Source: a virus. Taken from it: DNA of 35,585 nt. Shown piece by piece: positions 3,833 to 33,188 of this stretch. The stretch lies in IMG/VR virus record IMGVR_UViG_3300018428_000082, positions 1-35,585 of that record; one strand, 5' to 3'. Position 1 is the stretch's first letter. Each line of letters starts with the position of its first letter. The notes under the pieces are model-generated. The model was not told the DNA's origin and did not search any database. It saw only the letters and a list, made by a program, of their open reading frames with translations. The position numbers and the translations under genes were made by a program.

Positions 3833-3836
3833 ACAG

Positions 3837-3844
3837 TATTTATC
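3837..3844 (-). promoter_or_regulatory. T4-type late promoter motif (GATAAATA)
   Basis: GATAAATAC followed by TGT and then ATG at 3832. The motif and its 4-base distance to the start codon repeat the arrangement at 672-686. By T4 late promoter spacing, transcription would begin at or within one base of the start codon. Confidence 0.55.
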
Positions 3845-3851
3845 TGCATAC

Positions 3852-4382: not shown

Positions 4383-4390
4383 TTTGTCTC

Positions 4391-4651
4391 CTATCTAGCC
4401 CACATCAGTCCGTATGTCTGTGCAGTCTTATTGTTGTAAAATTCAACAATTAATTTTCTGTTGCCTTGATTACCTAGTTCTAACATTAGTTGACAATCTT
4501 CTTTAGGTTGCTCCCATATCCATTTGATATGATCTTCACCAATTTCTTTTTGAACCTTAGGCCAATCAATATCAAAAAAATCTTCTGGAACACTGTTTTT
4601 AATTGTATTTTTATATTTCCATTCATACAAGGTAACTTTAATATTCTTCAT
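4391..4651 (-). CDS. Small protein of unknown function (86 aa)
   Basis: The ATG overlaps the last 14 bases of the helicase gene, so it is probably translationally coupled to gp41. The product is tryptophan-rich, with short strand-like segments and no signal sequence. The position directly after a replicative helicase suggests early expression but says nothing firm about its job. The family is not recognised. Confidence 0.6.
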   Translation of the reverse strand: MKNIKVTLYEWKYKNTIKNSVPEDFFDIDWPKVQKEIGEDHIKWIWEQPKEDCQLMLELGNQGNRKLIVEFYNNKTAQTYGLMWAR

Positions 4652-6074
4652 CTTCGGATCCCATATTATTCAGTATCTGTCTTAACTTAGTTGATTCTAC
4701 CTTACCTTTTATTTTAGATACTGGAGCCCCGTCTGTTGGTTCCGTTCTTTGTTCTTCGTTACTTACTTCTGTCTTACGTTTGATTGAATCTATAATACTG
4801 CTACTACCGCGATTTTGTCCGTTGTAAGATTCTTGTTCGTCTTCTGGTAAATCTGTAATTCTAAGTGTTTCTACATTAAACTCTAAATCAACTTTTTGTC
4901 CTACACCACTAGAACTTCTAGTTTTCATTAACTGTATTTGATAACGTCCACGTTCACGCATAGCACGACTTGTGAAAATACCGAATACATTATCTGCTGT
5001 TTGTATTTTACTTAATCCGCCTGATATATGACTATGATCAAATTCTACTTCTTCAACTGCTCCTCTGTTTAACTGTGCCGCCGTTACAAATACACACTGT
5101 AGTTCCATTGCTAGATTACGCAATTCTTCAGATACATATTTGTCTTTGATAAACAAATCACTTGGGGCAATTCTTCTACTAGTTGGCATAAGCAAATCTA
5201 AATAGTCTACAAGTAAGACATCTACTTTGCGCCCCATTTTAATTTCATATTCTTTTAGATACGCTCTAATATCGTTAGCAGTCTTTCCGCTTGGCATATA
5301 TTTGATCTGGAATGCTCCAGATTTTTTACCAATCATTTTTACTTTCATTTCAACATCATCAATATTTTTAAAAATGTCTCTAGTTGTAACGCCTGTAGTC
5401 ATACTATCAACACGCATACTTACAAGTGCTTCTGAAAGTTCAAGTGTTAAGTAAACTACATTTAATCCTTCTAATGCCCAGTTAACACCTAAGTTAGCAA
5501 GGAACAAAGATTTACCTGCACCAGAACCTCCTGCAAAAATATTAAGTTCGCCTCTATTCATACCACCAAATAATTTTTTATCTAGTGTTGCCCAGCCTGT
5601 GCTGATCTGACCATTGTTATCTTTTAGGCCCATTAATCTTGCACGTGGATCTGCAAAATAATCTGTGCCCATATCTTTTGCCAAACCAATTTGCACTGCT
5701 TCTTTTACAATTGATTCAACCTGTCCATAATCTTTCTTTTCTAGTAAATCTGCACTTTGTATAATTGCTTTTTCTAATGCTTTGTGTCTTGTAAAACTTT
5801 CAAATTCATCGAGTAACCAGTCTAGATGTCCTTCTTTTAATTCACCAGGATGTTTTAAGTCTGTTCTACAATTTGCATTTACAATATCATACTCCGGCAA
5901 TACACTGTATTCTTTTGCATATGTGTTTATAAATTCTGCGGCTTCTTGTAGTTTTCTATCAAACAATGTATGATCAAAAATACCTTGACATCTTACAAAT
6001 GTCTCAGCATCAGAAAGCATTATTTCAAGATAAACTTTCTGCACATCATAATCATAATTTTTAATTAAAGCCAT
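4638..6074 (-). CDS. 41: DnaB-like replicative helicase, T4 gp41 type
   Basis: The protein has 478 residues, near the 475 of T4 gp41. An N-terminal helical domain (about 1-150) precedes a RecA-like motor domain. Walker A is GGSGAGKS at 182-189, and Walker B lies in VDVLLVDYLDLL at about 284-295. Later segments AAQLNRG and MKTRSSSG fit DnaB-family motifs H3/H4. It unwinds DNA 5' to 3' ahead of the fork and works with the gp61 primase encoded at 10305-11342. The charged C-terminal 60 residues are of low complexity. No strong promoter is seen directly upstream, so it is probably read from the upstream operon. Confidence 0.93.
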   Translation of the reverse strand: MALIKNYDYDVQKVYLEIMLSDAETFVRCQGIFDHTLFDRKLQEAAEFINTYAKEYSVLPEYDIVNANCRTDLKHPGELKEGHLDWLLDEFESFTRHKALEKAIIQSADLLEKKDYGQVESIVKEAVQIGLAKDMGTDYFADPRARLMGLKDNNGQISTGWATLDKKLFGGMNRGELNIFAGGSGAGKSLFLANLGVNWALEGLNVVYLTLELSEALVSMRVDSMTTGVTTRDIFKNIDDVEMKVKMIGKKSGAFQIKYMPSGKTANDIRAYLKEYEIKMGRKVDVLLVDYLDLLMPTSRRIAPSDLFIKDKYVSEELRNLAMELQCVFVTAAQLNRGAVEEVEFDHSHISGGLSKIQTADNVFGIFTSRAMRERGRYQIQLMKTRSSSGVGQKVDLEFNVETLRITDLPEDEQESYNGQNRGSSSIIDSIKRKTEVSNEEQRTEPTDGAPVSKIKGKVESTKLRQILNNMGSEDEEY

Positions 6075-7796: not shown

Positions 7797-8520
7797 TGTT
7801 TTCCTCGAAATTTTCTTGATTCAAAAATCCTGTATTAAACCCTTTATTAAGATCTACTACGTCATTATTACTATAGTAATTATAAATTTTATCTGCAAGG
7901 ATCTTATGATTAGGCTTACTTAAATGAGACAACCTGAAGTCAGTGAAGCCGCCATCTTTAGTCAAATCATTCCATATTTTTTCATTTTCAAATTCTAAAA
8001 TACTCTTAGCAAATAAGTTGCCTTTGGCTTGAATACAGTTTTCTATTGGTAAGTTTTTGAACTCTTGAAATTCTCTTGTAAACATTATTAATGGCTTGTT
8101 TGTCAGGCGATAACTTAGTTTATCAATCCAAGCACAGTATGAATACATCTTTGCCATTGTTAGATCTTTATTATATAAAAAGTAAAAATAATCTTTGTAT
8201 GCTTGAATTTCACTGTCTGTCTTCTTCATCCATCTTTCATCATCTTCTCTATATTGATACACATGAGTAAAGTCAGGATCTTCTGGCCAAATACATACTC
8301 TATTCCAAAACGGTAAAAGTGCGATTACAACATCATCTTTTTCTATTTTGTCATAAAATTCTATAATTTTTAAAGTAAGCCATTCAGCGGAAGCACCGTT
8401 GTGACTTATATTATACAAATCTAATTTTAATCTTTTAGCAAGATCTATTTGCCATGACCAATTGTATTGTTCTTCTGACAATCCTGCAAAACTATCTCCA
8501 AACACAAATAACTTACTCAT
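7780..8520 (-). CDS. SGNH/GDSL-family hydrolase-like protein (246 aa)
   Basis: Block I is FVFGDSFAG with the nucleophile Ser10. An NGAS segment (41-44) fits the Gly/Asn oxyanion region, and a late DFRLSHLSKPNH segment provides the Asp and His of block V. The family hydrolyses esters, often acetyl groups on glycans or natural products; the substrate here is unknown. There is no signal peptide, so it acts in the cytoplasm. The start codon overlaps the carbamoyltransferase stop (TAATG) and the end overlaps the halogenase start, placing it in the middle of a coupled three-gene cassette. Confidence 0.7.
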   Translation of the reverse strand: MSKLFVFGDSFAGLSEEQYNWSWQIDLAKRLKLDLYNISHNGASAEWLTLKIIEFYDKIEKDDVVIALLPFWNRVCIWPEDPDFTHVYQYREDDERWMKKTDSEIQAYKDYFYFLYNKDLTMAKMYSYCAWIDKLSYRLTNKPLIMFTREFQEFKNLPIENCIQAKGNLFAKSILEFENEKIWNDLTKDGGFTDFRLSHLSKPNHKILADKIYNYYSNNDVVDLNKGFNTGFLNQENFEENNEQIR

Positions 8521-9992
8521 TAGTAAACATTTACTCCATATCTTTTCTCAAATTTTTTTGCATCTTTGGTATTGTTTACCATTGGTTTGCCCTTGATATT
8601 TAAACTTGTGTTTAACAACATTGGACATCCGGTTTTAGCATACCAACGCTCCAATAATTCTCTTAGTGCAGGATGGTCAGATTTAGAAACTGTTTGCACT
8701 CTGCTTGTTCCATCTACATGAACAATTGCAGGAAATAAATCAGGCTTCCTACATTTAGAAGTATATTGCATGTATGGACCTACTTCACCATAAAAATATT
8801 CTTCAGCATGTTCTGCTAAAATCATAGGAGCAAAAGGACGATACCGTTGACGTTTTTTTATTGCGTTAACTTTATCTTTTGTTTCTTTTCCTCTAGGATC
8901 TGCAAGCAGTGATCTATTTCCTAATGCTCTAGGACCAAACTCTGCCTTACCGTTTGCAACACCTACAATGCCTGTTGTTTTTAATTCTTTAAATACATTG
9001 TCAATAGGATAATCGCCTTCAATGTTGTAACCTAAATAAGGTGTTTCCCATTTTATGTGTTTTTGTTTCTTTGCTAATACAGCACCGACACTGCTACCTG
9101 CATCACCTGGATTAGGCATGATCCAAATATTCTTATAGTAAGCAGATGCACTACTATTTGCTTTACAATTTAATGCACACCCGCCCATGACAACTAAATT
9201 TTTACTTTTATAATTGCTTGCGCAGTATTCTACTAGTCCGCTGAATATTTCTTCGTATATACTTTGTGTGGCTGCTGCAAAGTTCAGTTTATCAGTCCAC
9301 TTAGTATATCCTTCTTTATACCATCTACATCCTCTATGCAAATTTGTTTTAAATTTTACATTAGGAAATTGCCAATGATCATGAGGGCCTAGTTCAAAAA
9401 ATGTTTCTTTCATATGATGATAATGTTTTCTAACATCACCATACGCAGCCATGCCCATTAAAATATATTCGTCTTCGTTTGGTTTTAAACCTACCCTTTG
9501 TGTCATTGCACTATACCACAGTCCTACACTGTGCGGATAACTTTGAGAAAAGACTTTTTTAATCTTTTCACCTTTACCTTCCCATATTGTTAAGGTTTCA
9601 AATTCACCAATACTATCTATGCAAAGTATAGTTGCATCGCTAAACTTACTTGTGTAATAACCTGCTGCGGCATGACTTTCGTGATGGTTACTGTAACCTA
9701 TGGGTGCATTTATGCCATATTGTTTAAGATAACTTTTTACATTATTTTCATTCCAGTTATAACCTTGACCTGCAGATAACTGACGAATTGTTTTTTTGAA
9801 AGGTTTTTCATACCAAATAACTTCGTCTGGTTCGCCCCACTGTCTTGCATACTCAAGTAATGGTTTATTGAGATGTGGATCGTTCTTAAGCCCACTAAAC
9901 CTTTCGGTGTGACTTGCAAAAACTAATTTATCGTTGTCAAATACTGCTAACGATCCGTCGTGACTGTTTGCAGATATACCCCAAGTTATCAT
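8520..9992 (-). CDS. Carbamoyltransferase, NodU/CmcH/TobZ family
   Basis: The 490 residues show the family order: N-terminal ISANSHDGSLAVF and TERFS, HHESHAAAGYY (103-113) of the ATP-using Kae1-like domain, GGCALNCKAN near 270, and EFGPRALGNRSLLADPR near 350, followed by the YrdC-like C-terminal lobe. Members transfer a carbamoyl group from carbamoyl phosphate, through carbamoyladenylate, to hydroxyls of sugars, antibiotics or, in some phages, modified DNA bases. The acceptor here is not shown. The gene is coupled by ATGA to the DUF2061 gene upstream and by TAATG to the SGNH gene downstream. Confidence 0.9.
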   Translation of the reverse strand: MITWGISANSHDGSLAVFDNDKLVFASHTERFSGLKNDPHLNKPLLEYARQWGEPDEVIWYEKPFKKTIRQLSAGQGYNWNENNVKSYLKQYGINAPIGYSNHHESHAAAGYYTSKFSDATILCIDSIGEFETLTIWEGKGEKIKKVFSQSYPHSVGLWYSAMTQRVGLKPNEDEYILMGMAAYGDVRKHYHHMKETFFELGPHDHWQFPNVKFKTNLHRGCRWYKEGYTKWTDKLNFAAATQSIYEEIFSGLVEYCASNYKSKNLVVMGGCALNCKANSSASAYYKNIWIMPNPGDAGSSVGAVLAKKQKHIKWETPYLGYNIEGDYPIDNVFKELKTTGIVGVANGKAEFGPRALGNRSLLADPRGKETKDKVNAIKKRQRYRPFAPMILAEHAEEYFYGEVGPYMQYTSKCRKPDLFPAIVHVDGTSRVQTVSKSDHPALRELLERWYAKTGCPMLLNTSLNIKGKPMVNNTKDAKKFEKRYGVNVY

Positions 9993-10228: not shown

Positions 10229-10330
10229 CTACTTGTAAATAAAAGGGTCCTTTTCCCTTAACTCTTTAATTTTTTTTCTAAGTTTGTATCTTGCATACAA
10301 ATCTTTAAACCATTTCTTTATTTTTTTCAT
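10229..10330 (-). CDS. Very small basic peptide (33 aa)
   Basis: An ATG inside the end of the primase gene opens a 33-codon frame (MKKIKKWFKDLYARYKLRKK...) whose TAG stop abuts the DUF2061 ATG exactly (TAGATG). The product is a lysine/arginine-rich amphipathic helix. Exact tiling between two genes supports translation; the small size keeps confidence moderate. Function unknown. Confidence 0.5.
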   Translation of the reverse strand: MKKIKKWFKDLYARYKLRKKIKELREKDPFIYK

Positions 10331-11342
10331 TTAACTTCTCCAACTTTGCAATAAAGTTTTTCTTGGCAACATTAATTTTTATACTACCGCTTACAGCAGT
10401 TTTTATAATATCTACTGTAACAAATAGTTTGCCATGTTTTTTAACTGCTTGAGCGACATCTTTAACATCGTCATCCCAATTAGGAAATGCAACGCTCCAG
10501 CCATATTCAATTGCCTTATTGATTAAATTTAATCCTGCCTCGTCTTGATCAGGTATTACTATTACTTCATGACCTAATCCTTGTATAATTCTATATTGTT
10601 GTTCTGATATATTATTAGTTAGCAGAGCAACGCCATCAATTGATAATGCATCGAAAGGACCTTCTGCAACAAATATATATTTTTGATTTTCTTCTTGTGT
10701 ATCTACATTAAAAACAAAATGTGAATGTTGATCACTTATATATTTAGGTCTTCCGCTTCTAACTTTACGTGCTGTGCTACCTACAATTTTTCCTCTATAC
10801 CTAAAAGGAACAATAACTCTATCACAATAACTTGGATCTGGAGTCCAATAAAAATTATCACTTGCAGGATGAAATCCTCTATCATAAATGTATTCAACTA
10901 CTTTTGCAAATGTTTCTTCTAATTTTTTATCATGTGAAAAATCAACTTCTAACCATTGAGATATAGGAAGACTGTTCTCCGGAAGTTTCTTTTCTGCGAA
11001 ACTTATTCTGACTTGTGATTCTCTTGGTTTGTAATCCGGAGATTCAGTCTTCAGCGCCTCAAATATCATTTTGTTAATTGTATCTTCAGATGCTCCCATC
11101 CAACGACACAATGATTTAAATTTTTCAGATAATGGTCTACCAGGTTGCCAACTTGCTGTAAATTTGCAATTGAAACAGTTGAATACTACGCCTGTGTCAA
11201 AACGCAAACCACCTCTTTTTCTTTTATCGTGACTATGTCCTCTATGATGACAACACGGAGCATTAAAAGATGTCCAGCCACTAGGATTACTTTTTGCCCG
11301 CGGCGGAATCAAGGATCGGAATGTATCGAGAACCAAAGTCAT
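10305..11342 (-). CDS. 61: DNA primase, T4 gp61 type
   Basis: The N-terminus carries a zinc-binding region with Cys30, Cys31 and neighbouring His residues plus CFNC at 56-59. A Toprim domain follows, with VAEGPFDAL (Glu227 as the conserved acid) and the metal-binding PDQDEAG at 264-270. The 345-residue length is close to T4 gp61 (342). It makes RNA primers on the lagging strand with gp41. A near-perfect sigma-70 promoter lies at its start and predicts transcription from the A of the ATG, with no Shine-Dalgarno sequence. The downstream halogenase cassette probably shares this transcript. Confidence 0.93.
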   Translation of the reverse strand: MTLVLDTFRSLIPPRAKSNPSGWTSFNAPCCHHRGHSHDKRKRGGLRFDTGVVFNCFNCKFTASWQPGRPLSEKFKSLCRWMGASEDTINKMIFEALKTESPDYKPRESQVRISFAEKKLPENSLPISQWLEVDFSHDKKLEETFAKVVEYIYDRGFHPASDNFYWTPDPSYCDRVIVPFRYRGKIVGSTARKVRSGRPKYISDQHSHFVFNVDTQEENQKYIFVAEGPFDALSIDGVALLTNNISEQQYRIIQGLGHEVIVIPDQDEAGLNLINKAIEYGWSVAFPNWDDDVKDVAQAVKKHGKLFVTVDIIKTAVSGSIKINVAKKNFIAKLEKLNEKNKEMV

Positions 11343-12286: not shown

Positions 12287-12658
12287 ATGAGAATAACAGA
12301 AAATTTACAAAAAAACTTCCCGTTTATAAGTGTTCTTGTCCACGCGGATAAAGAATACGTAGGTGTTATCATCAACCAAGATGCTAATGTTACAAGTTTT
12401 TATGACTATGAAGCCATAGATACTGAGCAAGAAAAGAAAAGGTTTTTGGAATTAGGTGAAGCATGGTGGTGGGAATCAAATAGGCAAATACCTATTAATA
12501 TTTTCTTGAAAAATGAGATAAAATCATTCGATTATGTCATTAGAAACTTTACTACAAAGGATGTTAAAATTAACCTAGGGCCTATTACAAGCCTTAACAA
12601 TATTATTGTAAAACGTATTAAGCGTAAATCAATTACTCTAGTCCGTAAACCTTCTTAA
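12287..12658 (+). CDS. Unknown protein on the minority strand (123 aa)
   Basis: One of the few + strand genes. It begins 32 bases from the divergent structural gene. The 123 residues contain beta-like segments and an acidic, Trp-rich middle (about residues 45-65, with GEAWWWES), then a basic C-terminus. No family is recognised. Its 3' end overlaps the convergent membrane-protein gene at 12633, so no separate terminator fits between them. Confidence 0.6.
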   Translation: MRITENLQKNFPFISVLVHADKEYVGVIINQDANVTSFYDYEAIDTEQEKKRFLELGEAWWWESNRQIPINIFLKNEIKSFDYVIRNFTTKDVKINLGPITSLNNIIVKRIKRKSITLVRKPS

Positions 12659-12869
12659 TACCAACATAAACTACGTAATCTACAAGTAAAAAATTTACAA
12701 GATATCCTAATGGAGTAAGCATAAAACCAAATAGATAAGGCAGTGCAAACACCAAGAAAATTATTCTAAAGATGTAAGCCCATACATAGAATTCAGGAAC
12801 TACCCACAAAGGCCATGGACCTAGTTTAGGTTTTTTATGATTTCTATAATCTTCAAATTCAAAGTTCAT
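12633..12869 (-). CDS. Small membrane protein (78 aa), unknown
   Basis: Residues about 26-45 and 47-70 are hydrophobic and likely form two membrane helices after a charged N-terminal stretch (MNFEFEDYRNHKK). The gene overlaps the end of the dioxygenase gene upstream by 11 bases, so it is probably coupled to it, and overlaps the end of the convergent + strand gene by 26 bases. Function unknown. Confidence 0.6.
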   Translation of the reverse strand: MNFEFEDYRNHKKPKLGPWPLWVVPEFYVWAYIFRIIFLVFALPYLFGFMLTPLGYLVNFLLVDYVVYVGIKKVYGLE

Positions 12870-13464
12870 TGTCTATATTAAAATTCATAGTTATTGATAT
12901 TCTGTCTTCATTGCTTTTATTTTTTTCTACCATGTGTAGTAGTGTTGATCTAAAAATTAAAAGTTTATTATTCTTAGGAACAAAAGAATACGTTCCAAAT
13001 GAGGCTGCTGTTTCTGCTTTATGTAAAGGTAGAGGGTGCATGTCGGCAATAGAATCTAAACTTTTAAATGTTATGTTACCAGAATCTGGATTTGATTGAA
13101 TATAGTATGCCAAACTAAAATGACTATTAGGATGGTTATGATATTCTTGATAATCGCCAGGATGAGCAATGTTTAACCAGAAATCTACACAACGTATTTT
13201 ATTAGGTTTGATACCCCATTCGCTACTGAAACCTAATACTCTGTTACCGCATTCTTTTATAAGTTCATTCACTACAGTATCATTATCATGTCCAGGCTCA
13301 TAATGATTTAGAGTATTATATGTATCGCATCGCCATTCGTTATCAACGTTAGGAAATTTATTTTTTAAATTATATGCTTTATCAACCAGATGCTGATTGT
13401 ATTTTTCAAGATGTGTAAGATCGTCTTCAAACACTAATGTAGGAAATAAGAGATGTGTTGTCAT
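12859..13464 (-). CDS. 2-oxoglutarate/Fe(II) dioxygenase-like protein (201 aa)
   Basis: I start at the ATG at 13464 because it makes an ATGA junction with the DnaE-like gene; an upstream in-frame start at 13491 would lie inside that gene. YHNHPNSHFSLAYYI contains candidate metal ligands His109 and His111. STLLHMVEKN gives His177, and Arg188 lies 11 residues later for 2-oxoglutarate. This is the TIGR02466-type family, like the gene at 14897-15535. The substrate is unknown; cytoplasmic. Confidence 0.75.
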   Translation of the reverse strand: MTTHLLFPTLVFEDDLTHLEKYNQHLVDKAYNLKNKFPNVDNEWRCDTYNTLNHYEPGHDNDTVVNELIKECGNRVLGFSSEWGIKPNKIRCVDFWLNIAHPGDYQEYHNHPNSHFSLAYYIQSNPDSGNITFKSLDSIADMHPLPLHKAETAASFGTYSFVPKNNKLLIFRSTLLHMVEKNKSNEDRISITMNFNIDNEL

Positions 13465-14039
13465 GGGTGTTGTTGTCCTACCTGTTCGCAAATTAAATTC
13501 ATTTGAACAACCACTGCTACTGCATATGCAGTTGCGTGAGACTTCTTAAAAAAGTATTCATCAGTCGTTGGTTTCCTCCATACTTCGTTCATTATCTCTG
13601 TCCATGTCTTGTCTATTAGGTGTCTTTTTGCTGGACGTATTATTGCTAGAACTGCTGCCAATTGTTCCACACTCGTTGGTTTCAACTTTCGCAGGATTTG
13701 TCCATGTCCGTTGACGTGAAAGAGCAAGTCTGTGAAATCGTCCTGTTCTAGTAGTTCCCATAATGGTTCCCTTTCCATAAGTTGTGTAAGATGTTTTTCA
13801 TTCATTATGCCTTTGTATAAAGACACATTTAAGAAATCAAGTTTAAACAAACCTTGTTCTTCTGCTTCATCATAATTTACAGCACATAAATTGTTTTCAG
13901 GATCAAATGGAACCTCACTCATATAAACACCAGTGTTGTGTTTTAAGATTTTGCCATCTTCTTCACGACGTGCTCTCACATGTTTGAACAGTTTCAGTGC
14001 TTCTTCTCTATCAACAAAATCTATGTCTATATCAGGCAT
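13461..14039 (-). CDS. Miniature DnaE-like protein: DNA polymerase III alpha palm elements (192 aa)
   Basis: The protein opens with MPDIDIDF, the palm motif holding two catalytic aspartates in bacterial DNA polymerase III alpha (here Asp3 and Asp5). Next come HNTGVYMSE, resembling the DnaE HAGVHAAG region, and GLFKLDFLNV, matching the GLVKFDFLGL motif with the third aspartate (Asp68). AAVLAIIRP resembles LxALNALYRPGP, and FFKKSHATAYAV (163-174) resembles FNKSHSAAYAL. So palm motifs survive in order in 192 residues, against about 1,160 in DnaE, with no PHP, beta-binding or OB regions. Polymerase, nuclease-inhibitor or regulatory roles are all open. It is coupled to genes on both sides. Confidence 0.7.
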   Translation of the reverse strand: MPDIDIDFVDREEALKLFKHVRARREEDGKILKHNTGVYMSEVPFDPENNLCAVNYDEAEEQGLFKLDFLNVSLYKGIMNEKHLTQLMEREPLWELLEQDDFTDLLFHVNGHGQILRKLKPTSVEQLAAVLAIIRPAKRHLIDKTWTEIMNEVWRKPTTDEYFFKKSHATAYAVAVVVQMNLICEQVGQQHP

Positions 14040-14214
14040 TTGTTTCTAATTTCCATTGTTTATAAATTTCATAATTACCACTTGCAGTATAACATTGACC
14101 TGTTTCTAAGTCAACGATTTTCCATTTTTCAGGACATTTTGTAAGTATTGTTAAATTGACAGGCTTGTCAAGTTCCTTAACCACTTTACCATCTTTTAGT
14201 GTTCTTGTTTTCAT
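14032..14214 (-). CDS. Small protein of unknown function (60 aa)
   Basis: A 60-residue protein (MKTRTLKDGKVVKEL...) whose TAATG start is coupled to the zinc-finger gene and whose end overlaps the DnaE-like ATG by 8 bases. The middle CPEKWKIVDLETGQCYTAS looks like a small beta-hairpin domain with two cysteines. No family is recognised. Its tight placement supports it as real. Confidence 0.6.
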   Translation of the reverse strand: MKTRTLKDGKVVKELDKPVNLTILTKCPEKWKIVDLETGQCYTASGNYEIYKQWKLETNA

Positions 14215-14900
14215 TAATCTATCTTGCCTTCTGCAATTACTTCTTTTACTAATTCAACATCAGCAGGTAATTTTTTGAATTTGCCTCTCCAAAATATCGG
14301 ATCAATATATTCTCCTACTATTTCAAGTTGTTCATCATTGAATTTTTGCAACATATCTTTTCCAGTCTTGCTATTTAAAATTAACCAAGGACTTATTTTT
14401 CCATCTTTTAAATCATGCGTTGCTCTATTTAAATTGACATACTTAAAATAATGATTCCAATCTGCTTGTTTATCATCTGCCCAATCCATCATGGTCTTTA
14501 TTGTTCTTTGTATTGCACCGTCTGCAGGTTCAATTTTTAGAAGTTCTTTTACATATGTATCGTATAATTCATCTCTGCACCAATGATCTAATTTTATTCC
14601 GCTTTTAATTACAAAGTCGATAAATTTTTCAGGATATATAGGATAGTTATTTGCCATAAAACTACCGAATTTTACAAAAGCATTGTAGTATGCACTCGAT
14701 ACGAAATCATCAAATGTTTTTTTCTTAGATGTATTTTGCGATATTTCATAAAATCTTTGATATGTCATTAATGCGAGTTGAACGTGTTTTTCTCCCTTGC
14801 TAAGATAACGCCTTTTAGGTTCACAAACATGAACAGTCAATGTTTTTTCACGTGCAAAACTTTTTCCGCAGTATCCACATTTGTAATCTTGTGTTGTCAT
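14214..14900 (-). CDS. Zinc-finger protein of unknown function (228 aa)
   Basis: The N-terminus (YKCGYCGKSFAREKTLTVHV followed by C) has CxxC and a His-x-Cys spaced like a C2H2/C2HC finger at about residues 7-26. The remaining 200 residues are mixed helix and strand with several Trp and no enzyme motif that I recognise. A role in binding DNA or a nucleic-acid enzyme is an inference. It lies among replication-linked genes between the gp62 candidate and the DnaE-like protein. The ATG overlaps the upstream dioxygenase stop (ATGA). Confidence 0.6.
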   Translation of the reverse strand: MTTQDYKCGYCGKSFAREKTLTVHVCEPKRRYLSKGEKHVQLALMTYQRFYEISQNTSKKKTFDDFVSSAYYNAFVKFGSFMANNYPIYPEKFIDFVIKSGIKLDHWCRDELYDTYVKELLKIEPADGAIQRTIKTMMDWADDKQADWNHYFKYVNLNRATHDLKDGKISPWLILNSKTGKDMLQKFNDEQLEIVGEYIDPIFWRGKFKKLPADVELVKEVIAEGKID

Positions 14901-15535
14901 CTTATTTTTAGTGTTCCTATATCTTCTTTTGCGTCAAGATGTAGATCGCCTCTAAAAAATACATTAAAGGCAATGCATAATCTTTCTCTATCAGATTCAG
15001 ACGGCTTTACTTCGTGATCTAAATGAGATGGAAATAAAAATAATTCACCTTCTTTAGGAGTAAACCACCATTGCTTACTATTAAATTCGTTAAACCAACT
15101 ATACTTAAAACCAAACACACTAGGAAACATATTTTGATAGTGTCCTGGTTTTTCAAAACCTAAGTCTCCACTTAATTGATCACATTGCAAATAGTAGATT
15201 CCTGATAGTAAACTATTTTCGTGAAAATGTTTGTTAGCATAATCACCTCGATGGTGTTTCATAACCCAACTATTTGTAATGTAAAAGTCTACACTGTCTT
15301 TTATGCCTAGTCTGTCTTTAAGAAAAAAGTTAATATTTGTTAAAATCTTATCATGCAAGTCGTTATACTTTTGATTATCTAGAATCATTTTATCTTCTGT
15401 AATGAAACCATTATTAACAGCAATCCTATCAAAAGATTCATTAAAAACGTTTTGTCTATCTTGTTCATTAACACCTAGTGTAGCCTGATAGATTGGCATA
15501 GCAAACAATGGCATTACATTCCATGCTGTATTCAT
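14897..15535 (-). CDS. 2-oxoglutarate/Fe(II) dioxygenase-like protein (212 aa)
   Basis: NKHFHENSLLSGIYYL contains candidate metal ligands His103 and His105, LFPSHLDHEV gives the distal His174, and Arg183 nine residues later fits 2-oxoglutarate binding. This is the TIGR02466/PF13759-type fold with a double-stranded beta helix. It is coupled by ATGA junctions to the gp62 candidate upstream and the zinc-finger gene downstream. The substrate is unknown. Confidence 0.78.
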   Translation of the reverse strand: MNTAWNVMPLFAMPIYQATLGVNEQDRQNVFNESFDRIAVNNGFITEDKMILDNQKYNDLHDKILTNINFFLKDRLGIKDSVDFYITNSWVMKHHRGDYANKHFHENSLLSGIYYLQCDQLSGDLGFEKPGHYQNMFPSVFGFKYSWFNEFNSKQWWFTPKEGELFLFPSHLDHEVKPSESDRERLCIAFNVFFRGDLHLDAKEDIGTLKIR

Positions 15536-15999: not shown

Positions 16000-16553
16000 A
16001 GTTCTAGTATACACTCATATTTCACAATTTTCAATGATTTTTTGTTCTTTTTAGGTTTTGTATATCTAATAACTTTATCAATCACTGTTCTCATTTCCAA
16101 TATTTTTAATTTTTCTTTCCACCATTGAGGGTTTTCAATTATTAAATGTGCATTTCTGCCATCTGGCAAAATTGATACCGCAGGAAAACACGCAATAATG
16201 TGATATTGACAAATTTTTGTTCTATTTTTAAGATCTAATAAAGTATTTTCTAATTCTTGCGGTTCAACATGTTCTAAAACATCAGTAGAAACTACCATAT
16301 CTACTTTTTCTGGTAAAGGTTCGTCAAAAATTGGATCCCAACCTATCACATCTATATCAGGATATTGCAATTTAAGTTTTTTTGTTAAAAAACCCTTGCC
16401 TGTTCCGAAATCTAAAATAGATTTTGGCTTGTATTTGGCAATAGCATTTTGTAACATAGCAGGAATAGGGTCTTTTTTAAATTCTTTACCCCATTTTGGA
16501 TTTGCTTCATGCATTTCTTGCAATAATTTTTTATATTCTGCAGATTGTGTCAA
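15996..16553 (-). CDS. Class I SAM-dependent methyltransferase (185 aa)
   Basis: SILDFGTGKGFL is a clear motif I for S-adenosylmethionine binding. DVIGWDP follows as the acidic motif II region, and MVVSTDVLEHVE matches motif IV/post-II of class I methyltransferases. The substrate is unknown; small molecules or glycans are as likely as nucleic acid. The open frame starts with TTG (16553), 8 bases after the previous stop; the first ATG is codon 14 (16514). The TTG start is my preference because of spacing, but it is uncertain. Confidence 0.75.
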   Translation of the reverse strand: MTQSAEYKKLLQEMHEANPKWGKEFKKDPIPAMLQNAIAKYKPKSILDFGTGKGFLTKKLKLQYPDIDVIGWDPIFDEPLPEKVDMVVSTDVLEHVEPQELENTLLDLKNRTKICQYHIIACFPAVSILPDGRNAHLIIENPQWWKEKLKILEMRTVIDKVIRYTKPKKNKKSLKIVKYECILEL

Positions 16554-16561
16554 ATTTTTCT

Positions 16562-16789
16562 CTACTGTTCGGGATCTTTAGAAAGTGTATATAAAAACTT
16601 TAATTTTTTCAATAATTTTTGTATTGATCTGTTACCGTGATTAGCCATATGCTGAATTTCTGAAAAATCATGGTCATCTAAATACCAATCTGGATACTTT
16701 TTCTTTTCAATTACCACACGTTTACCAGTAATAGTATCTCTTTCAAAAATTGTATCACCACCATCTGGAGATTCATAAATTTTAGTCAT
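16562..16789 (-). CDS. Small protein of unknown function (75 aa)
   Basis: I choose the internal ATG at 16789 (MTKIYESPDGGDT...) because the longer frame to 16852 lies inside the upstream gene and is out of character. The tandem ATG at 16792 is an alternative. The start overlaps the end of the upstream gene. The N-terminal YESPDGGDTIFERD block looks like a short conserved domain; the C-terminal half is basic and helical. No family is recognised. Confidence 0.5.
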   Translation of the reverse strand: MTKIYESPDGGDTIFERDTITGKRVVIEKKKYPDWYLDDHDFSEIQHMANHGNRSIQKLLKKLKFLYTLSKDPEQ

Positions 16790-16979
16790 CATGTTTTTGA
16801 TATTGACCGCGATCGTTTGCAATTTCCCTCGCCAGTTGCTGAATATCGTCAATCAAAAATTGTATTGTGTTTTGATCTTGCTGTTCTTTTGGCAAATCAT
16901 ATTTAAGCCTACGTAGGTTCATTGATTTGTCATACATTACACTTACCTTGTCGCACATTTCGCTAATTTTATGCAGCAT
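16782..16979 (-). CDS. Small helical protein of unknown function (65 aa)
   Basis: First gene behind a recognisable promoter and preceded by a strong AGAGGAGG ribosome site, so it is likely well translated. The 65 residues are charged and helical, possibly a short coiled coil (residues about 10-55), with no catalytic motif. It leads the transcription unit that runs through the methyltransferase and gp62 candidate. Confidence 0.6.
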   Translation of the reverse strand: MLHKISEMCDKVSVMYDKSMNLRRLKYDLPKEQQDQNTIQFLIDDIQQLAREIANDRGQYQKHDD

Positions 16980-17002
16980 TTAAGCCTCCTCTGTTATATA
17001 CT

Positions 17003-17031
17003 AAGTTAGCATGACTTTTGTTTTGTGTCAA
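17003..17031 (-). promoter_or_regulatory. Sigma-70-type promoter with extended -10
   Basis: On the - strand, a perfect -35 TTGACA (17026-17031) is followed after 17 bases by TAACTT (17003-17008), a weak -10 that is preceded by TGC, an extended -10 element. It overlaps the stop codon of galE and would give the gene at 16979 a short leader containing AGAGGAGG. Confidence 0.55.
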
Positions 17032-17864
17032 CTAATTTTTAAGTATTCTTCTAAGGTGTATTTTTCCAACATAAACTTTGAAACATTATCCAAAATTGTT
17101 TTTGCCGGGTCACCTGGACGTTTTGGTGCGTAATTTATTTTAAAATTAAGATTGTTGACATATTTAAATGTTTCTGCAATTTCTTTTACACTATAACCTT
17201 TGCCATGTCCTAAATTTTCAATTGAATTTGTATTGTTGTCTATTGCTGCTTCTAATGCTAAACAAATTTCATTGACATGCACGTAATCTCTTACTGCTGT
17301 GCCATCCTTTGTGTCATAATCATCGCCGTATATATTGAATACACCTGTTTCTATTGCTTCGTTCAACTTATAAAACAATCCGTCTGGATTAGTTGCTTTA
17401 AATCCATCTGTGCCTGTTACATTATAGAATCTAAAGGTAGTAAACGGTATATTGTTATTATTACAGTGTTCTTTGACAATATCTTCTGCTACTATTTTAC
17501 TAAATGCATAAGGACTTGCAGGAGCAGATGCAGCACCAGTAGAACCAAAAATAAATTGCTTAAATTTTAAGTTTTTTAAAATATTAGTAGTCCCATTTAT
17601 ATTAGTATTGTAATAATCGTATGGTCTATCAACAGATTCGCCTACTCTAACCAAAGCAGCAAGATGAATTATTGCATGATACTCGGTCTTTATCGAAGAA
17701 AGATCAGAAGTAATGTTTTTGCTAATGTAATTTTGCAAAAATGTGTGTTTAGGAAAGCCATGCAAATCTAAACCGTCTATATCAAAGTGTTTATGAAGAA
17801 TCTTACAAAGATGCTGCCCAATATACCCGTTTGATCCTGTAATTAAAATTTTTAGTTTGGCCAT
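17028..17864 (-). CDS. galE: NAD-dependent sugar epimerase, GalE-like (278 aa)
   Basis: Extended short-chain dehydrogenase: the NAD-binding TGSNGYIG is at 9-16 and the catalytic YxxxK is Tyr119/Lys123 in SPYAFSK. The later IYGDDYDTKDGTAVRDYVHV segment is characteristic of UDP-glucose 4-epimerases. It would interconvert UDP-glucose and UDP-galactose or their N-acetyl or uronic forms, supplying sugar donors to the transferases nearby. At 278 residues it is shorter than E. coli GalE (338). It is the last gene of the operon and overlaps the upstream glycosyltransferase by 13 bases. Confidence 0.87.
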   Translation of the reverse strand: MAKLKILITGSNGYIGQHLCKILHKHFDIDGLDLHGFPKHTFLQNYISKNITSDLSSIKTEYHAIIHLAALVRVGESVDRPYDYYNTNINGTTNILKNLKFKQFIFGSTGAASAPASPYAFSKIVAEDIVKEHCNNNNIPFTTFRFYNVTGTDGFKATNPDGLFYKLNEAIETGVFNIYGDDYDTKDGTAVRDYVHVNEICLALEAAIDNNTNSIENLGHGKGYSVKEIAETFKYVNNLNFKINYAPKRPGDPAKTILDNVSKFMLEKYTLEEYLKIS

Positions 17865-18481
17865 AGATGTCTCAGTTTACTTTTATAGTGCTTGATTTTT
17901 GCATGCGGCACTGTTTTTTTTGCAAAATAAAAATTATTATAAATTCTACATTCGAAAACTTTTATATTTGTATTATTTCTAGTTACAGTGGTGTTTGTGT
18001 CTTTAGTTGTAACTTGACATAACTTGTTTAACTCCTGTTGATCGCTTACTCCTGTTTCACACAGGGCAATCCATTCTTCTACAAATTTTATTGCCTGGTT
18101 TGTTTTTCTTACGAATACAATTCCAGCATTTATAGGCAAACTATTTTCTTTTTGTTTAGGTTGCCTTACAGTTACACCTATGTCGTAGTCTTGCATTATT
18201 TCATCAAACCTATCTAGCACGATAGCATCGGCGTCTATCCATGCAACATAATCCCCAAACTCAATATCCATAAGTGCATCCATTATCATGCCAGGCTTAG
18301 ATGGAATCTTAGCACCAACTTGTGGACTTACTCTACCTTTGAACGGTTTACCAAATCCTAGCCCACCGAGATCATAAATTACAGGTTCATATCCAACTTT
18401 ACGACAACTTTCTGCTGCTTTTTCTACATATGGAGCAAAAACTTTATCACCTGCAACTACTGTTATTATTTTATTTTTCAT
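17852..18481 (-). CDS. GT-A-fold glycosyltransferase-like protein (209 aa)
   Basis: YVAWIDADAIV (DAD at about 83-85) is a DxD motif for metal and nucleotide-sugar binding, and LPINAGIVFVRKT is the typical post-DxD acceptor-loop block of GT8/nucleotide-diphospho-sugar transferases. The C-terminus is basic. Donor and acceptor are unknown. It is coupled by ATGA to the dioxygenase gene upstream and overlaps galE downstream, which fits a sugar-assembly operon. Confidence 0.72.
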   Translation of the reverse strand: MKNKIITVVAGDKVFAPYVEKAAESCRKVGYEPVIYDLGGLGFGKPFKGRVSPQVGAKIPSKPGMIMDALMDIEFGDYVAWIDADAIVLDRFDEIMQDYDIGVTVRQPKQKENSLPINAGIVFVRKTNQAIKFVEEWIALCETGVSDQQELNKLCQVTTKDTNTTVTRNNTNIKVFECRIYNNFYFAKKTVPHAKIKHYKSKLRHLWPN

Positions 18482-19149
18482 ATTCTTCTCGATGTTGGTA
18501 TAGGATATAACAATTGATCAGTGCTGCTATAAATTTTATCAAAAAACATTATATAAGTATACCTATCTTTTCCAGACATGTTTACCTGTGCAGCATGATA
18601 TTGAAAACTATCAAATGCAACCAGTGAATTATATTCTCCAGTAAATGATGCCACCTTTTTAAATCTAGAATTAAATTCGTCTCTATGATTAATATAATCT
18701 CCTTCGTTGCTTTGTATGTTTGCATTTAAATCCATGCTTGATTTGAAATACTTGTATTTTTCATTTGTTGCAAGATCTGTTTTATCAACTTTTGTTGTAT
18801 TTGGCACCCATACTTCTGTGCCAGCGTTTACATCTTTTGTCAAGTAAATGATCGCAGTCAATTGTGCCATAGTATCGCTATGAACCCAACCGTCTGCTTT
18901 GAGTCCTGACGGCACCCATTGAAAAACTCCCGTGCCTTCATAGTTAATCTGTTTATAATTAGAAGGAAATAATATAGATAAAATTTTTAAATTTAATGTA
19001 TTATATAATTCATAGTTTGCAATATGCAATGGAGTAGATCTCTTGCCAGGTGAATCACCATCGTTAGCATAGTCCAGTGTTTTTGCGTAGTCAGCAATTT
19101 CTTCTACATTATCTAGAAAATTGTTTACAAATATTGTAGGGAATAACAT
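18478..19149 (-). CDS. 2-oxoglutarate/Fe(II) dioxygenase-like protein, DUF6445 type (223 aa)
   Basis: GWVHSDTMAQLTAIIYL supplies His90 and Asp92 (HxD), FDSFQYHAAQ the distal His185, and Arg196 eleven residues later the 2-oxoglutarate contact. The layout resembles DUF6445-type dioxygenases often found near halogenase or glycan genes. It is coupled by TAATG to the asparagine synthase gene and by ATGA to the glycosyltransferase. The substrate is unknown; hydroxylation of a sugar or amino-acid product of this operon is plausible. Confidence 0.7.
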   Translation of the reverse strand: MLFPTIFVNNFLDNVEEIADYAKTLDYANDGDSPGKRSTPLHIANYELYNTLNLKILSILFPSNYKQINYEGTGVFQWVPSGLKADGWVHSDTMAQLTAIIYLTKDVNAGTEVWVPNTTKVDKTDLATNEKYKYFKSSMDLNANIQSNEGDYINHRDEFNSRFKKVASFTGEYNSLVAFDSFQYHAAQVNMSGKDRYTYIMFFDKIYSSTDQLLYPIPTSRRI

Positions 19150-20465
19150 TAATTTTTTCCTTTCGCAGTAACATGAAATCCTCTTTTTTCCTTCGGTTCA
19201 TAAGGAAAATTATTAACAGCAAGATATTCATCTAACGCACTTTTATATTTGCTATTTTTAAGGTCTACACTTAGCCATAAAAATTCTTGAACCAATTGTT
19301 TATCTAAAAAAGGATATCTAGTTTCAATTCCAAAATGTCCCGCTACATATTCCTCTTTGTTTAGGTATTGTATTTGAGTTCCATCATAAAAACTATGCCA
19401 TGGAAAGAATCCGTTCATTTGTGCCGGAAAGAGTCCACCAAATTCACTGTGCTTATATATTTTCTTGCCACCAAACCCATAGTCACTTATAATTTCATCA
19501 GCACCCTGTCCGCTAAAATAAATTCTTCTATTCTCTTTATTTGCTCTTGTGCATATTGCACTTAGACCCATAGATGCTTGATCTTTTTTAATATTGTAAT
19601 TCCTAAATCCATCATTATATTCAAAATTTTCACAATTAGAATTTAGTTCGTTTTTCCATTTCTTAAACTCTTCAGGACTTAGAGTAAAGGCTTCAGGATT
19701 TTTTACTATATTAAATCTTTCATTTAATACTCTTTCATTTTCGTTATTGATTATAGAATATGCTTTAAATTCTTTGTTTTGTTTTGTAAGTTCGCATGCA
19801 ATAGCACCGCTGTCATAACCACTACTCATTCCAATAAACATTCCTTTATCAGTATTTGCAGTTCTCTTTGCAATACTATTTGAAAATGCCTGCATCCAAT
19901 CGTCAAAGTTTGTTTTGTGTTGGAATGTATCGAAAGTATAATTATGATAGCCTTTAATATTTCTTAAACTTTTTAAGTCAAATACCAATGTATTGTTTGA
20001 TTGAAGTTTTTGTGGATTTTGGAATCCTAGGCCTGTCAGTTGGCTTTTATAAGATGCAATACCAAATTTTCCATTTGTAAATTCATACCATAAAGGTTTA
20101 CACGCAAAAGTATCGTTAGCAATTAAAACAACATTGTCTTCAAAGTCAACGATACAGATTGCAAATTCTCCATCTAGTTTGTTTACAAACTCATCACCTT
20201 CTTTGTCATACAGATCAAGAATACATTCACCATCGGATTTGTAATCACCAAAATCCTTGTAGTTGTAAATTTCGCCATTAAATACACAAACAACATCGTC
20301 TTTGACAAACGGTTGGGGTGTCATATCTCCTGTGATATGAAGTAAATTGTGTAAGAACTCAACGCCGTTGATAACCTTGCTATTAGTTAGGTCAGGACCT
20401 CTCTTTTTACAAAATTGATTTGTATTGTTAAGTTGTGTTATGTTTGATACAGCAAAACCGCACAT
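19149..20465 (-). CDS. asnB: Asparagine synthase-type glutamine amidotransferase (438 aa)
   Basis: The protein begins MCGF, so Cys2 becomes the N-terminal nucleophile of a class II glutaminase. RGPD (22-25), NGEIYNY (63-69) and DGEFA (98-102) line that domain. The synthetase domain has a PP-loop MSSGYDSG (213-220) and SGQGADEIISDYG for ATP. It is shorter than E. coli AsnB (554). It would amidate a carboxyl group: asparagine is the default, but homologues in sugar operons can amidate uronic acids. A UDP-sugar dehydrogenase, which makes uronates, is two genes upstream. Confidence 0.85.
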   Translation of the reverse strand: MCGFAVSNITQLNNTNQFCKKRGPDLTNSKVINGVEFLHNLLHITGDMTPQPFVKDDVVCVFNGEIYNYKDFGDYKSDGECILDLYDKEGDEFVNKLDGEFAICIVDFEDNVVLIANDTFACKPLWYEFTNGKFGIASYKSQLTGLGFQNPQKLQSNNTLVFDLKSLRNIKGYHNYTFDTFQHKTNFDDWMQAFSNSIAKRTANTDKGMFIGMSSGYDSGAIACELTKQNKEFKAYSIINNENERVLNERFNIVKNPEAFTLSPEEFKKWKNELNSNCENFEYNDGFRNYNIKKDQASMGLSAICTRANKENRRIYFSGQGADEIISDYGFGGKKIYKHSEFGGLFPAQMNGFFPWHSFYDGTQIQYLNKEEYVAGHFGIETRYPFLDKQLVQEFLWLSVDLKNSKYKSALDEYLAVNNFPYEPKEKRGFHVTAKGKN

Positions 20466-20482
20466 GCATTCTTTGTCCTATA

Positions 20483-21049
20483 TTATTTTTTTACAAAGAA
20501 CATACCTGATTCTCTAATATGTTTTCCTGTTCCAGATAGATCTCTAATTTTTTGACTGTCTTCAGGAACTTGTTCAAAGCCTCTAGCCGCAAAATGATTA
20601 ATCCAATATTCTGGTAATTGATTATTTACGTGATGATGTCCACGCTGTTTAGGCAATCCATGAGTCATAAAAATATATTTGCCGCAACATAATGTGTCTA
20701 AAAGATTGCCAAGATATTTTTCATCTACGTGTTCTACAACTTCGATACAGTTTACCATATCAACATCTGCTGTATGACTTTTTAGTGTTAAGTCTACTTC
20801 TAGTGTTGGGTGAACTGCATTTTGACAGTTTATATCTAATCCGTCAATTGCTATAGATTCCAGTCCTTGATCTGCAAACCATTTTGCAGCATGTCCATAT
20901 CCACTTCCTACATCCATTACTGATTTGATATTATATTTCTTAATAATATAATCCCAACTTTCAGGACAAAATGTATTGTGATTATTTTCCGCATAGTTTC
21001 CACCCAAGTGCGGTTTGTTTGGGTCTAATACTTCAGTATATTTAGGCAT
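20483..21049 (-). CDS. Class I SAM-dependent methyltransferase (188 aa)
   Basis: VMDVGSGYGHAAKWFAD is motif I, AIDGLDI provides the acidic residue after strand 2, and VDMVNCIEVVEHV is the motif IV-type block. The family resembles methyltransferases of sugar or small-molecule clusters. The target is unknown, but position between asparagine synthase and the UDP-sugar dehydrogenase suggests O-methylation of a glycan. The start overlaps the dehydrogenase end by 8 bases. Confidence 0.78.
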   Translation of the reverse strand: MPKYTEVLDPNKPHLGGNYAENNHNTFCPESWDYIIKKYNIKSVMDVGSGYGHAAKWFADQGLESIAIDGLDINCQNAVHPTLEVDLTLKSHTADVDMVNCIEVVEHVDEKYLGNLLDTLCCGKYIFMTHGLPKQRGHHHVNNQLPEYWINHFAARGFEQVPEDSQKIRDLSGTGKHIRESGMFFVKK

Positions 21050-21812
21050 TGTGTTTTCCTTCTATTAAAGTCTTATTGTATTCTAATAAGTTTTTTGTAG
21101 CCATAGGATCTACTCCTACGCTTTCTGCCCATGCACACCAACCGTAAATATCTTTAGGTATGCATTTGCTGTTTGCTCCTCTGCTTTCTGGAAATACAAA
21201 ACTAAACCATAAATTCTGTCTAGGATCATCTCCATACACCGCATCTCTGATAGTGTAATAATCTACGCCAGCAGCCTGACACGCATCATACAATTCTTGG
21301 CATTGCATTACCTTGTAAAAAATTGCACGATTTTCGGAAAATTTAATTATTTCTGCTTCATATCTAGTTACTTGTCTTATTGTAATGTTAGCGTTATATG
21401 CTTTTTGATAACATTCAATTACTGTTCTTCTATCTTCAGGATCACCACCAATTATCATAAATTGTCTAGCATCCATTTGTAAGAAAGGATGATTTGGCGT
21501 TTCGCCTAGGTATTCTGGTTGCACAACAATTCTTTTATTATACTTTTTAGCCATCTCATCTGCAAACCCAGGTTGAGTTGCTGATCTGATAACAATAAAG
21601 TCACAGCCGCAACTTGCAATTGCATCTTCTACAGCAGTGCAGTCTAGGCCGCCTACCTGATCCCATGGCGTTGGCACTGCTAAAAATGCAATATCACAGT
21701 TTTCTAACGGCTTTGTATAACCTTCTATAAACTTATCATATACTTGTGCATCGGGAAATAATTTTTGTGTTGCCTTTCCTATCCAACCATAACCTATAAT
21801 ACCAACTTTCAT
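21042..21812 (-). CDS. Short UDP-glucose/GDP-mannose dehydrogenase-like protein (256 aa)
   Basis: N-terminal Rossmann motif GIIGYGWIG, then EYLGE, the KxxxN pair Lys157/Asn161, and KCIPKD with the presumed catalytic Cys217. These are the active-site blocks of UDP-sugar 6-dehydrogenases, which oxidise C6 to a uronic acid. The protein stops about where the C-terminal UDP-binding domain would start (full enzymes are about 390-450 residues), so it may be an evolved short form or non-functional. It belongs to the sugar operon. Confidence 0.75.
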   Translation of the reverse strand: MKVGIIGYGWIGKATQKLFPDAQVYDKFIEGYTKPLENCDIAFLAVPTPWDQVGGLDCTAVEDAIASCGCDFIVIRSATQPGFADEMAKKYNKRIVVQPEYLGETPNHPFLQMDARQFMIIGGDPEDRRTVIECYQKAYNANITIRQVTRYEAEIIKFSENRAIFYKVMQCQELYDACQAAGVDYYTIRDAVYGDDPRQNLWFSFVFPESRGANSKCIPKDIYGWCAWAESVGVDPMATKNLLEYNKTLIEGKHNA

Positions 21813-21820
21813 ATAATCTC

Positions 21821-22441
21821 CTAAAAATCGTAATTGAATTCTTTAATATCATCTGCATATTTTTTTGCTACAATATCAATTAATTCCTGTGATGTATAAT
21901 ACGATTTATAATCTTTTCTATCTCTTGTTTTATTTAAATGTCCTAATGGTTCAAAACAATTTAATCTTTTTTGAACTTCAGCAAAGCCGTTTTTCATATT
22001 TTCTAATTTAATAATATGATCACAACCTTTTGCCCATCCTATTTGTTGACTACGTCCAGTTTGTTTCAACCATCCATCGAAGCCAAGTTTTTCTAGTCTA
22101 TCAATGTGTTGCTGTTGAATTTCAACATTGTGTTTTTCTTTACGTGAATTTTTATATTTAGGATCACTATTTGCAATTTCTATTCTAACCTTTGCAACGT
22201 CAATCTTAAAAGTATACCAACTTACAACATAGTCCCACGGATTTCTTACAACACAAAATTTCCATCCAAGATCATCTATATTCCAATAAGATTTTGCTTC
22301 GTCAATTGTTGCATGTTGCTGACGCTTTGTAACTTGATGATTTACAAAGTTTGTCTGCATCCAATTAGTAATACTGTTACCACCTGTTTTAGGAATATGT
22401 ATAAACGTGCAATGGTATGGGTCAGTAATCCTTGTTGCCAT
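21821..22441 (-). CDS. Sulfotransferase, family 2-like (206 aa)
   Basis: FIHIPKTGGNSI (13-24) is the 5'-phosphosulfate-binding loop and VVRNPWDYVVSWY (64-76) the 3'-phosphate-binding motif of PAPS-dependent sulfotransferases (Sulfotransfer_2). It would transfer sulfate from PAPS to a hydroxyl or amino group, most likely on a sugar given its operon. An APS-kinase-like gene at 33241-33675 may supply PAPS. The start is coupled to the upstream cupin gene by TAATG. Confidence 0.8.
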   Translation of the reverse strand: MATRITDPYHCTFIHIPKTGGNSITNWMQTNFVNHQVTKRQQHATIDEAKSYWNIDDLGWKFCVVRNPWDYVVSWYTFKIDVAKVRIEIANSDPKYKNSRKEKHNVEIQQQHIDRLEKLGFDGWLKQTGRSQQIGWAKGCDHIIKLENMKNGFAEVQKRLNCFEPLGHLNKTRDRKDYKSYYTSQELIDIVAKKYADDIKEFNYDF

Positions 22442-22797
22442 TATTTCACCTTCGTGCCAACTGTGCGTCTTACAATGTCATCGTGATTAAATTCTGCCCA
22501 ATACAATTCAAACGCAACTCCATCTTCAACGCCTTCAAACTGATGAATTTTGCCAGGCTTAACCTGTGTAAATTCTCCAGGTCCTAGAATAGTTTCATCG
22601 ACTAAGCCTTCTTGATCCTCTTGCCAAACACGAACAATCATTTTGCCTGACTCGACAAAGAATCCATTCCATTTAAATTTGTGTTCGTGTTCGGAACACT
22701 TGTAACCTTTTTTGAATTCAATACGGTGGAATTCCAAAACACCATTGGCGTGGATCAATTCCGTTTGACCCCAAATTTTGCCTGCTTTCATTGTCAT
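22441..22797 (-). CDS. Cupin protein (118 aa)
   Basis: A single cupin beta-barrel: HEHKFKWNGFFVESGKMIV is cupin motif 1 (GX5HXH-like, here reduced to HEH) and PGKIHQFEG is motif 2. It resembles sugar-isomerase-type cupins such as the C-terminal mannose-6-phosphate isomerase module, but function cannot be assigned. A GGAAGG ribosome site precedes the ATG. It heads the sugar operon running down to galE. Confidence 0.72.
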   Translation of the reverse strand: MTMKAGKIWGQTELIHANGVLEFHRIEFKKGYKCSEHEHKFKWNGFFVESGKMIVRVWQEDQEGLVDETILGPGEFTQVKPGKIHQFEGVEDGVAFELYWAEFNHDDIVRRTVGTKVK

Positions 22798-22836
22798 TTT
22801 CCTTCCTTGCCTTTCGGCTTGTAATAGTATTAATTA

Positions 22837-25953: not shown

Positions 25954-25959
25954 TTTTAT

Positions 25960-25988
25960 ATTATAATACCAAATTGATAATAAATCAA
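25960..25988 (-). promoter_or_regulatory. Sigma-70 promoter for the uvsW operon
   Basis: On the - strand, TTGATT (25983-25988) and a perfect TATAAT (25960-25965) are 17 bases apart. Six bases separate the -10 from the ATG at 25953, so transcription should start at the A of the start codon. This is the same geometry as the primase promoter. The -35 overlaps the stop codon of the glycosyltransferase-like gene that ends at 25985. Confidence 0.8.
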
Positions 25989-26842: not shown

Positions 26843-26853
26843 GTAGATCCTCA

Positions 26854-33183: not shown

Positions 33184-33188
33184 GAATA

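Follow-up and report, generated by a model that had tools for sequence, protein, structure and literature searches.

The C-terminal half of a split, minimal DNA polymerase III α-like polymerase in an uncultivated phage genome fragment

We identified, in a 35,585-nucleotide (35.6-kb) stretch of viral DNA (IMG/VR record IMGVR_UViG_3300018428_000082; hereafter the window), a 192-aa protein that corresponds to the C-terminal half of a split, minimal Pol III α-like polymerase. Since relatives encode the missing half as a separate gene, the two small proteins (hereafter the C-half and the N-half) probably join into one active site. Iyer, Anantharaman, Krishnan, Burroughs and Aravind (Iyer et al. 2021, PMC7824862) have already described, from genome comparison, a minimal Pol III that group 2.2 jumbo phages carry in split form, the corresponding PHROGs being phrog_11778 and phrog_11127; the window gene is a further member of that family, as its C-terminal half, and is not new in kind. 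A truncated 172-aa α subunit was also noted in the CBB genome paper (PMC5259590), and Pol III subunits were noted in the Atu_ph07 genome paper (PMC6102473). We found no experimental study or biochemistry of the split minimal Pol III in the open-licence literature that we searched.

The C-half ORF is intact on the minus strand, running from an ATG at position 14039 to a stop at 13461 (Table 1). Its start shares 8 bases (ATGCCTGA) with the upstream frame, and its end shares 4 bases (ATGA) with the downstream oxygenase ORF. All of the motif blocks quoted in the initial annotation of this DNA are present in the intact ORF, and together they make up the palm and fingers motifs of the C-family (DnaE/PolC), arranged as in DnaE; the AAVLAIIRP block holds R135 and P136, and the FFKKSHATAYAV block holds H168. 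D3, D5 and D68, for which the E. coli numbering was assigned by motif alignment, fall at the positions of the catalytic aspartates of Pol III.

Table 1. Positions in the window of the C-half gene, its motifs and the surrounding genes; loci are the 80 related IMG/VR loci.
Feature	Position	Strand	Remarks
C-terminal half of split minimal Pol III α-like polymerase (phrog_11778)	13461-14039	-	192 aa
MPDIDIDF	14016-14039	-	Residues 1-8; catalytic Asp D3 and D5 = E. coli α D401 and D403; D7 likewise invariant
HNTGVYM	13920-13940	-	Residues 34-40; equivalent of DnaE HAGGVVI; invariant H34, G37
FKLDFLN	13827-13847	-	Residues 65-71; K66 and third catalytic Asp D68 (E. coli KFDFLG, D555)
IIRPAK fingers motif	13626-13643	-	Residues 133-138; equivalent of DnaE YRPGP; invariant R135, P136, K138
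FKKSHATAYA fingers helix motif	13521-13550	-	Residues 164-173; equivalent of DnaE FNKSHSAAYA; H168 and Y172 invariant in 43-sequence alignment
C2H2 zinc-finger gene (phrog_11058)	14214-14900	-	Upstream, same strand in 80/80 loci
60-aa ORF	14032-14214	-	Overlaps C-half start by 8 bases; in 34/80 loci
phrog_11637 gene, unknown function	12287-12658	+	Downstream, opposite strand in 79/80 loci
DNA primase (gp61-like)	10305-11342	-	Cluster partner, 73/80 loci
DnaB-like helicase (gp41-like)	4638-6074	-	Cluster partner, 65/80 loci
UvsW-like helicase	23343-24794	-	Cluster partner, 56/80 loci
UvsY-like recombination mediator (phrog_231)	34268-34726	-	
UvsX-like recombinase, C-terminal part	34961-35569	-	Cut by window end
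2OG-Fe(II) oxygenase-like genes (phrog_81)	14897-15535, 12859-13467	- (both)	Either side of the C-half gene

Profile searches bore out the proposal that this is a C-family palm/fingers protein. The best PHROG match was phrog_11778, annotated as 'DNA polymerase' (E = 1.6e-62, well outside what chance would give), with weaker matches to two families of full-length phage DnaE (phrog_405, E = 2.5e-9; phrog_12219, E = 2.3e-5). Searches with the single sequence gave a sub-threshold match to Pfam DNA_pol3_finger (E = 0.006), and PDB matches that were all to Pol III α (E between 0.035 and 0.12). phrog_11778 is a large family in T4-like phages, mostly jumbo phages. Using tblastn, we detected the C-half in 72 phage records, 63 of them at ≥80% of the query. 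Most come from jumbo phages that infect many different hosts; two are from 141-kb Alishewanella phages, and a few are short or partial. At least 552 relatives were found in IMG/VR, the nearest of which share 62-82% identity with the window protein and form a group separate from the isolates.

We aligned 43 representatives with 34-78% identity to the window protein. The invariant positions include D3, D5, I6, D7, H34, G37, P44, K66, D68, R135, P136, K138, H168 and Y172; hence, the homologues retain all three aspartates that had been assigned to the catalytic triad. A 60-sequence alignment made for folding agrees at the catalytic positions, with D3, D5 and D68 again invariant. The polymerase half is under purifying selection: dN/dS is 0.11-0.12 against the nearest relatives, where dS exceeds 1, and the median is 0.086 over 83 less saturated pairs. 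The length of the protein is similarly steady, at 188-216 aa in 93 members.

The AlphaFold2 model of the C-half (pLDDT 91.8) fits the E. coli α palm. In a comparison with the PDB, the first 15 matches were all to Pol III α or PolC, with Z scores of 6.2-9.7, 181-190 residues aligned and an rmsd of 3.1-4.5, and the next match had a Z score of 3.3. Residues 1-189 superpose on E. coli α 400-781, Taq α 461-838 and PolC 971-1299, such that the 192 aa cover E. coli α 400-781 with two large deletions. Palm catalytic motifs, from the alignments, and a Pol-β-type palm fold, from the comparisons of the models with the PDB, are seen in the C-half, as they are in the N-half of relatives. A full C-family polymerase also has the PHP, thumb, complete fingers, clamp-binding and OB regions on the same polypeptide; this 192-aa protein lacks that complete set. 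The top matches in the BFVD library of viral structures were ordinary phage DnaE-type polymerases.

The C-half lacks the NTP-binding GxGRGS helix, and begins at the point that this helix should precede. In 13 of 15 C-half-bearing genomes, Pfam DNA_pol3_alpha (PF07733) matches a separate, unlinked ORF of ~180 aa. This second gene is phrog_11127, it encodes about 160-180 aa, and it is not linked to the C-half gene. The N-half ORFs contain the sequence GxGRGSsvxSYxLyLlGvHkidSxkYxLxxxEFxK and then end, and this terminal sequence is the stretch that precedes PDIDIDF in DnaE. In an alignment of N-halves, G117, G119, R120, G121 and S122 are invariant. We conclude that the protein most probably works as part of a heterodimer, since the helix missing from the C-half is supplied by the second gene in relatives. 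The initial annotation had described a mini-DnaE from which everything else was cut out. Most regions of the enzyme are indeed absent, but the segment upstream of PDIDIDF is a separate gene in relatives, and a protein without the nucleotide-binding helix is not a complete mini-DnaE.

The two halves meet at the same point of the bacterial enzyme. An AlphaFold2 model of the N-half from a related contig (pLDDT 86.7) gave PDB matches with Z scores of 6.8-10.2, the next match having a Z score of 2.4; residues 53-156 superpose on E. coli α 278-398, Mycobacterium tuberculosis (Mtb) α 306-418 and PolC 824-971. The profile search places the end of the N-half at E. coli α 392; the C-half opens at the equivalent of Taq α M461, or E. 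coli residue 399. The structural ranges of the two halves adjoin without overlap at E. coli α 398/400. Sequences of the two halves that we concatenated in silico, purely to build an alignment, match bacterial and phage DnaE at each of the motifs. We found no natural fusion of the halves, and none of the loci analysed contained both. In relatives, the N-half gene adjoins a GroES-like gene (79 of 80 loci), and a clamp-loader gene is often nearby (55 of 80).

Among the 63 named phage records with the C-half at ≥80% of the query, 62 also have the N-half. The sole record with only the C-half, PP728206, is 109 kb long, and the other members of its genus in our set are ~346 kb. We also searched 20 IMG/VR contigs, all classed as lacking end repeats and often fragments. 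Several large contigs (e.g. G003, G004, G012 and G013) carry both halves; the C-half alone was detected in 8 of the 20, and the N-half alone in 6. Two sizeable contigs among those 8, G002 (280 kb) and G001 (199 kb), have the C-half and no detectable N-half; both are fragments. The N-half is absent from the 35.6-kb window, which is itself a fragment. By analogy with the relatives, we infer that the window's own phage carries it.

The C-half gene lies between uvsW and gp61/gp41 in relatives, within a cluster of replication and recombination genes (Table 1). The proposal of a conserved cluster that shows no decay is upheld by the synteny, with the zinc-finger gene present at every one of the 80 loci, and by the low dN/dS. 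The phrog_11637 gene is also kept in most of the jumbo phages that we examined. In contrast to the core cluster, the flanking positions taken by the two oxygenase-like genes vary among relatives (19/80 and 9/80 loci); by eye, the ORF at 3852-4382 (-) resembles these genes. A carbamoyltransferase-like ORF, also recognised by eye, lies at 8520-9992 (-), between the primase and helicase genes; it is on the same strand in 64/80 loci, and we did not see it in the named jumbo phages. Inspection by eye of positions 16000-33200, which separate the replication genes from uvsW/uvsX, indicates ORFs resembling glycosyltransferase, NDP-sugar epimerase, methyltransferase, asparagine synthase and sulfotransferase genes; this region is probably a glycan or metabolite gene island.

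Of 15 related genomes, 14 encode a family-B polymerase, and those of the 11 named phages all do; hence, the split protein is not their only polymerase. No family-B polymerase was seen within the 35.6-kb window. The family-B matches span two open frames in Atu_ph07 (212336-213688), PAC2 (202949-206726) and Slicko01 (3529-5033), and the gp43-type enzyme may be split or interrupted in these phages.

Taken together with the structure models, the sequence comparisons make it likely that the two halves form an active, two-subunit, minimal C-family DNA polymerase with an accessory role in a recombination/replication module. The C-half would supply the two-metal aspartate triad (D3, D5 and D68), K66 and H34, as well as the fingers elements expected to contact the template and dNTP, namely the RP motif and the KSH helix; the distantly encoded phrog_11127 protein would supply the GxGRGS NTP-binding helix. 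Non-covalent pairing would rebuild a Pol-β-type palm that is split at about E. coli α 398/399. The pair may work beside the family-B replicase, in gap filling, recombination-primed synthesis or synthesis of one strand, and the uvsX-uvsY-uvsW/gp61-gp41 module would be its setting. We computed homology, residue invariance, the coincidence of the split points, co-occurrence, synteny and purifying selection; from these we infer that the two proteins associate, that together they synthesise DNA, and that they do so as an accessory to the family-B replicase. What stands of the initial annotation is the C-family palm/fingers assignment, the triad, the cluster and the absence of decay, and what falls is the free-standing mini-polymerase.

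The thumb, most of the fingers, and the PHP, OB and clamp-binding regions are gone; it is therefore doubtful whether the pair binds primed DNA well or is processive, and its activity could be that of a specialised nucleotidyltransferase. Accordingly, the main rival to a polymerase is a two-protein active site that is not template-directed, and that tails a DNA or RNA end or nucleotidylates a protein. Such chemistry is within the range of the Pol-β fold, and neither the triad nor GxGRGS varies, yet most of the thumb and central fingers is absent. On the other hand, the RP motif and KSH helix, which contact the template and incoming dNTP in DnaE, are also invariant, and the gene lies among those for primase, the replicative helicase and recombination. 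We regard this alternative as rather improbable.

It is unlikely, and more so than a nucleotidyltransferase, that the protein is a non-catalytic mimic, i.e. a decoy or regulator that binds the host replicase, the clamp or the phage replisome through a polymerase-like surface. Such a role would fit a small protein that is missing most of the polymerase, in phages that already have a family-B replicase, but a decoy would have no need of catalytic and NTP-site residues that are invariant in both halves across deeply diverged phages. Towards the C-terminus, a conserved QMNLI bears a superficial likeness to a clamp-binding peptide. We rejected this candidate: QMNLI is not an added peptide, because its Q is matched in the alignment by the conserved Q of the DnaE fingers helix (SYQTxYLKA) and the string falls within what is predicted to be a long helix. 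No positive evidence favours the decoy, regulator and clamp-factor readings offered in the initial annotation.

We consider it very unlikely that the C-half alone is a minimal nucleotidyltransferase. It holds all three aspartates, and is the only half seen in some IMG/VR contigs; however, it lacks the GS motif helix that Pol-β-fold enzymes need to bind the NTP triphosphate, all but one of the named phages that have it also have the N-half, and the contigs without an N-half are fragments. Finally, although much of the ancestral enzyme is missing, it is scarcely credible that the gene is a pseudogene or a relic, kept by chance, of a phage or host DnaE that has been lost, since decay is ruled out by the dN/dS values, and the steady length, the synteny and the co-occurrence with the other half also contradict it.

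If the halves reconstitute activity, they would define a minimal catalytic core of the C-family, and would make it possible to study, in a small and tractable form, a replicase whose bacterial version is >1,100 residues long. One would also have to ask why a bacterial-type polymerase is retained in phages that have a family-B replicase of their own. One tentative suggestion is that a two-polymerase system operates in these phages, with the family-B replicase partnered by a ~350-aa, two-piece C-family polymerase for recombination-dependent or single-strand synthesis. This partner would be among the smallest known of the C-family, with its active site split into NTP-binding and metal-binding halves. 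Its layout could go back to an ancestral, modular core of the bacterial replicases instead of having arisen by reduction. In a tree of the joined halves with bacterial DnaE, PolC and phage DnaE, the phage minis form their own clade (support 100/100), set off by a branch of 2.40 substitutions per site. Because PolC falls inside DnaE with low support, the tree does not place the attachment point of this clade, and it neither supports nor rejects an ancestral layout. A scan of bacterial contigs for a cellular origin of the split form gave, among the matches listed, only partial-length matches with 24-33% identity, and those that we inspected were full-length DnaE.

Splitting of DnaE is known elsewhere. 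In cyanobacteria, DnaE is encoded by two unlinked genes, and a split intein ligates the halves into a full-length enzyme; the break point differs from that in the phage minis, whose halves show no intein segment. Closer in position is the full-length-type DnaE of Tenacibaculum phage Larrie (ON950054, 3146-6726), which is encoded by two genes with the same break (...FERFLN / PDID), but there the genes are adjacent, PHP and other domains are kept, and the first gene has a Hint-like tail. This terminal tail, of ~60 aa (YIVTTDTGDELQFPEGTLIRVIRDNEETAIFIENLEEGDTIIKY), is Hint/intein-like in appearance, and the sequence suggests that a split intein at the FERFLN / PDID site could have been a possible route to the split. 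A DnaE-like polymerase in Microbacterium phage Karate (2974-6325) is likewise annotated as adjacent genes, 55 and 56.

Compared with bacterial Pol III α (DnaE1/DnaE3; E. coli and Taq) and PolC, the phage pair has the same palm/fingers fold, with the triad and the GxGRGS, HxxG, KxD, RP and KSH motifs in the same order. In contrast, PHP, OB and the τ- and clamp-binding regions are missing from it, deletions have removed the greater part of the thumb and central fingers, and the palm is split between the GS and DxD motifs, on two unlinked genes. The system of Iyer et al. 2021 is the closest: it shares the C-terminal Mg/DNA-binding piece, the separate N-terminal NTP-binding piece in relatives, a family-B polymerase (here in related genomes) and T4-type replication genes. 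It differs in that the window is a fragment of an uncultivated environmental phage without the N-half, and in that we also find the pair in 141-kb Alishewanella phages, below jumbo size. Our analysis thus adds to the 2021 description quantitative support, from the split point, residue invariance, co-occurrence, selection and structure models, and extends it to many environmental phages and to the 141-kb phages.
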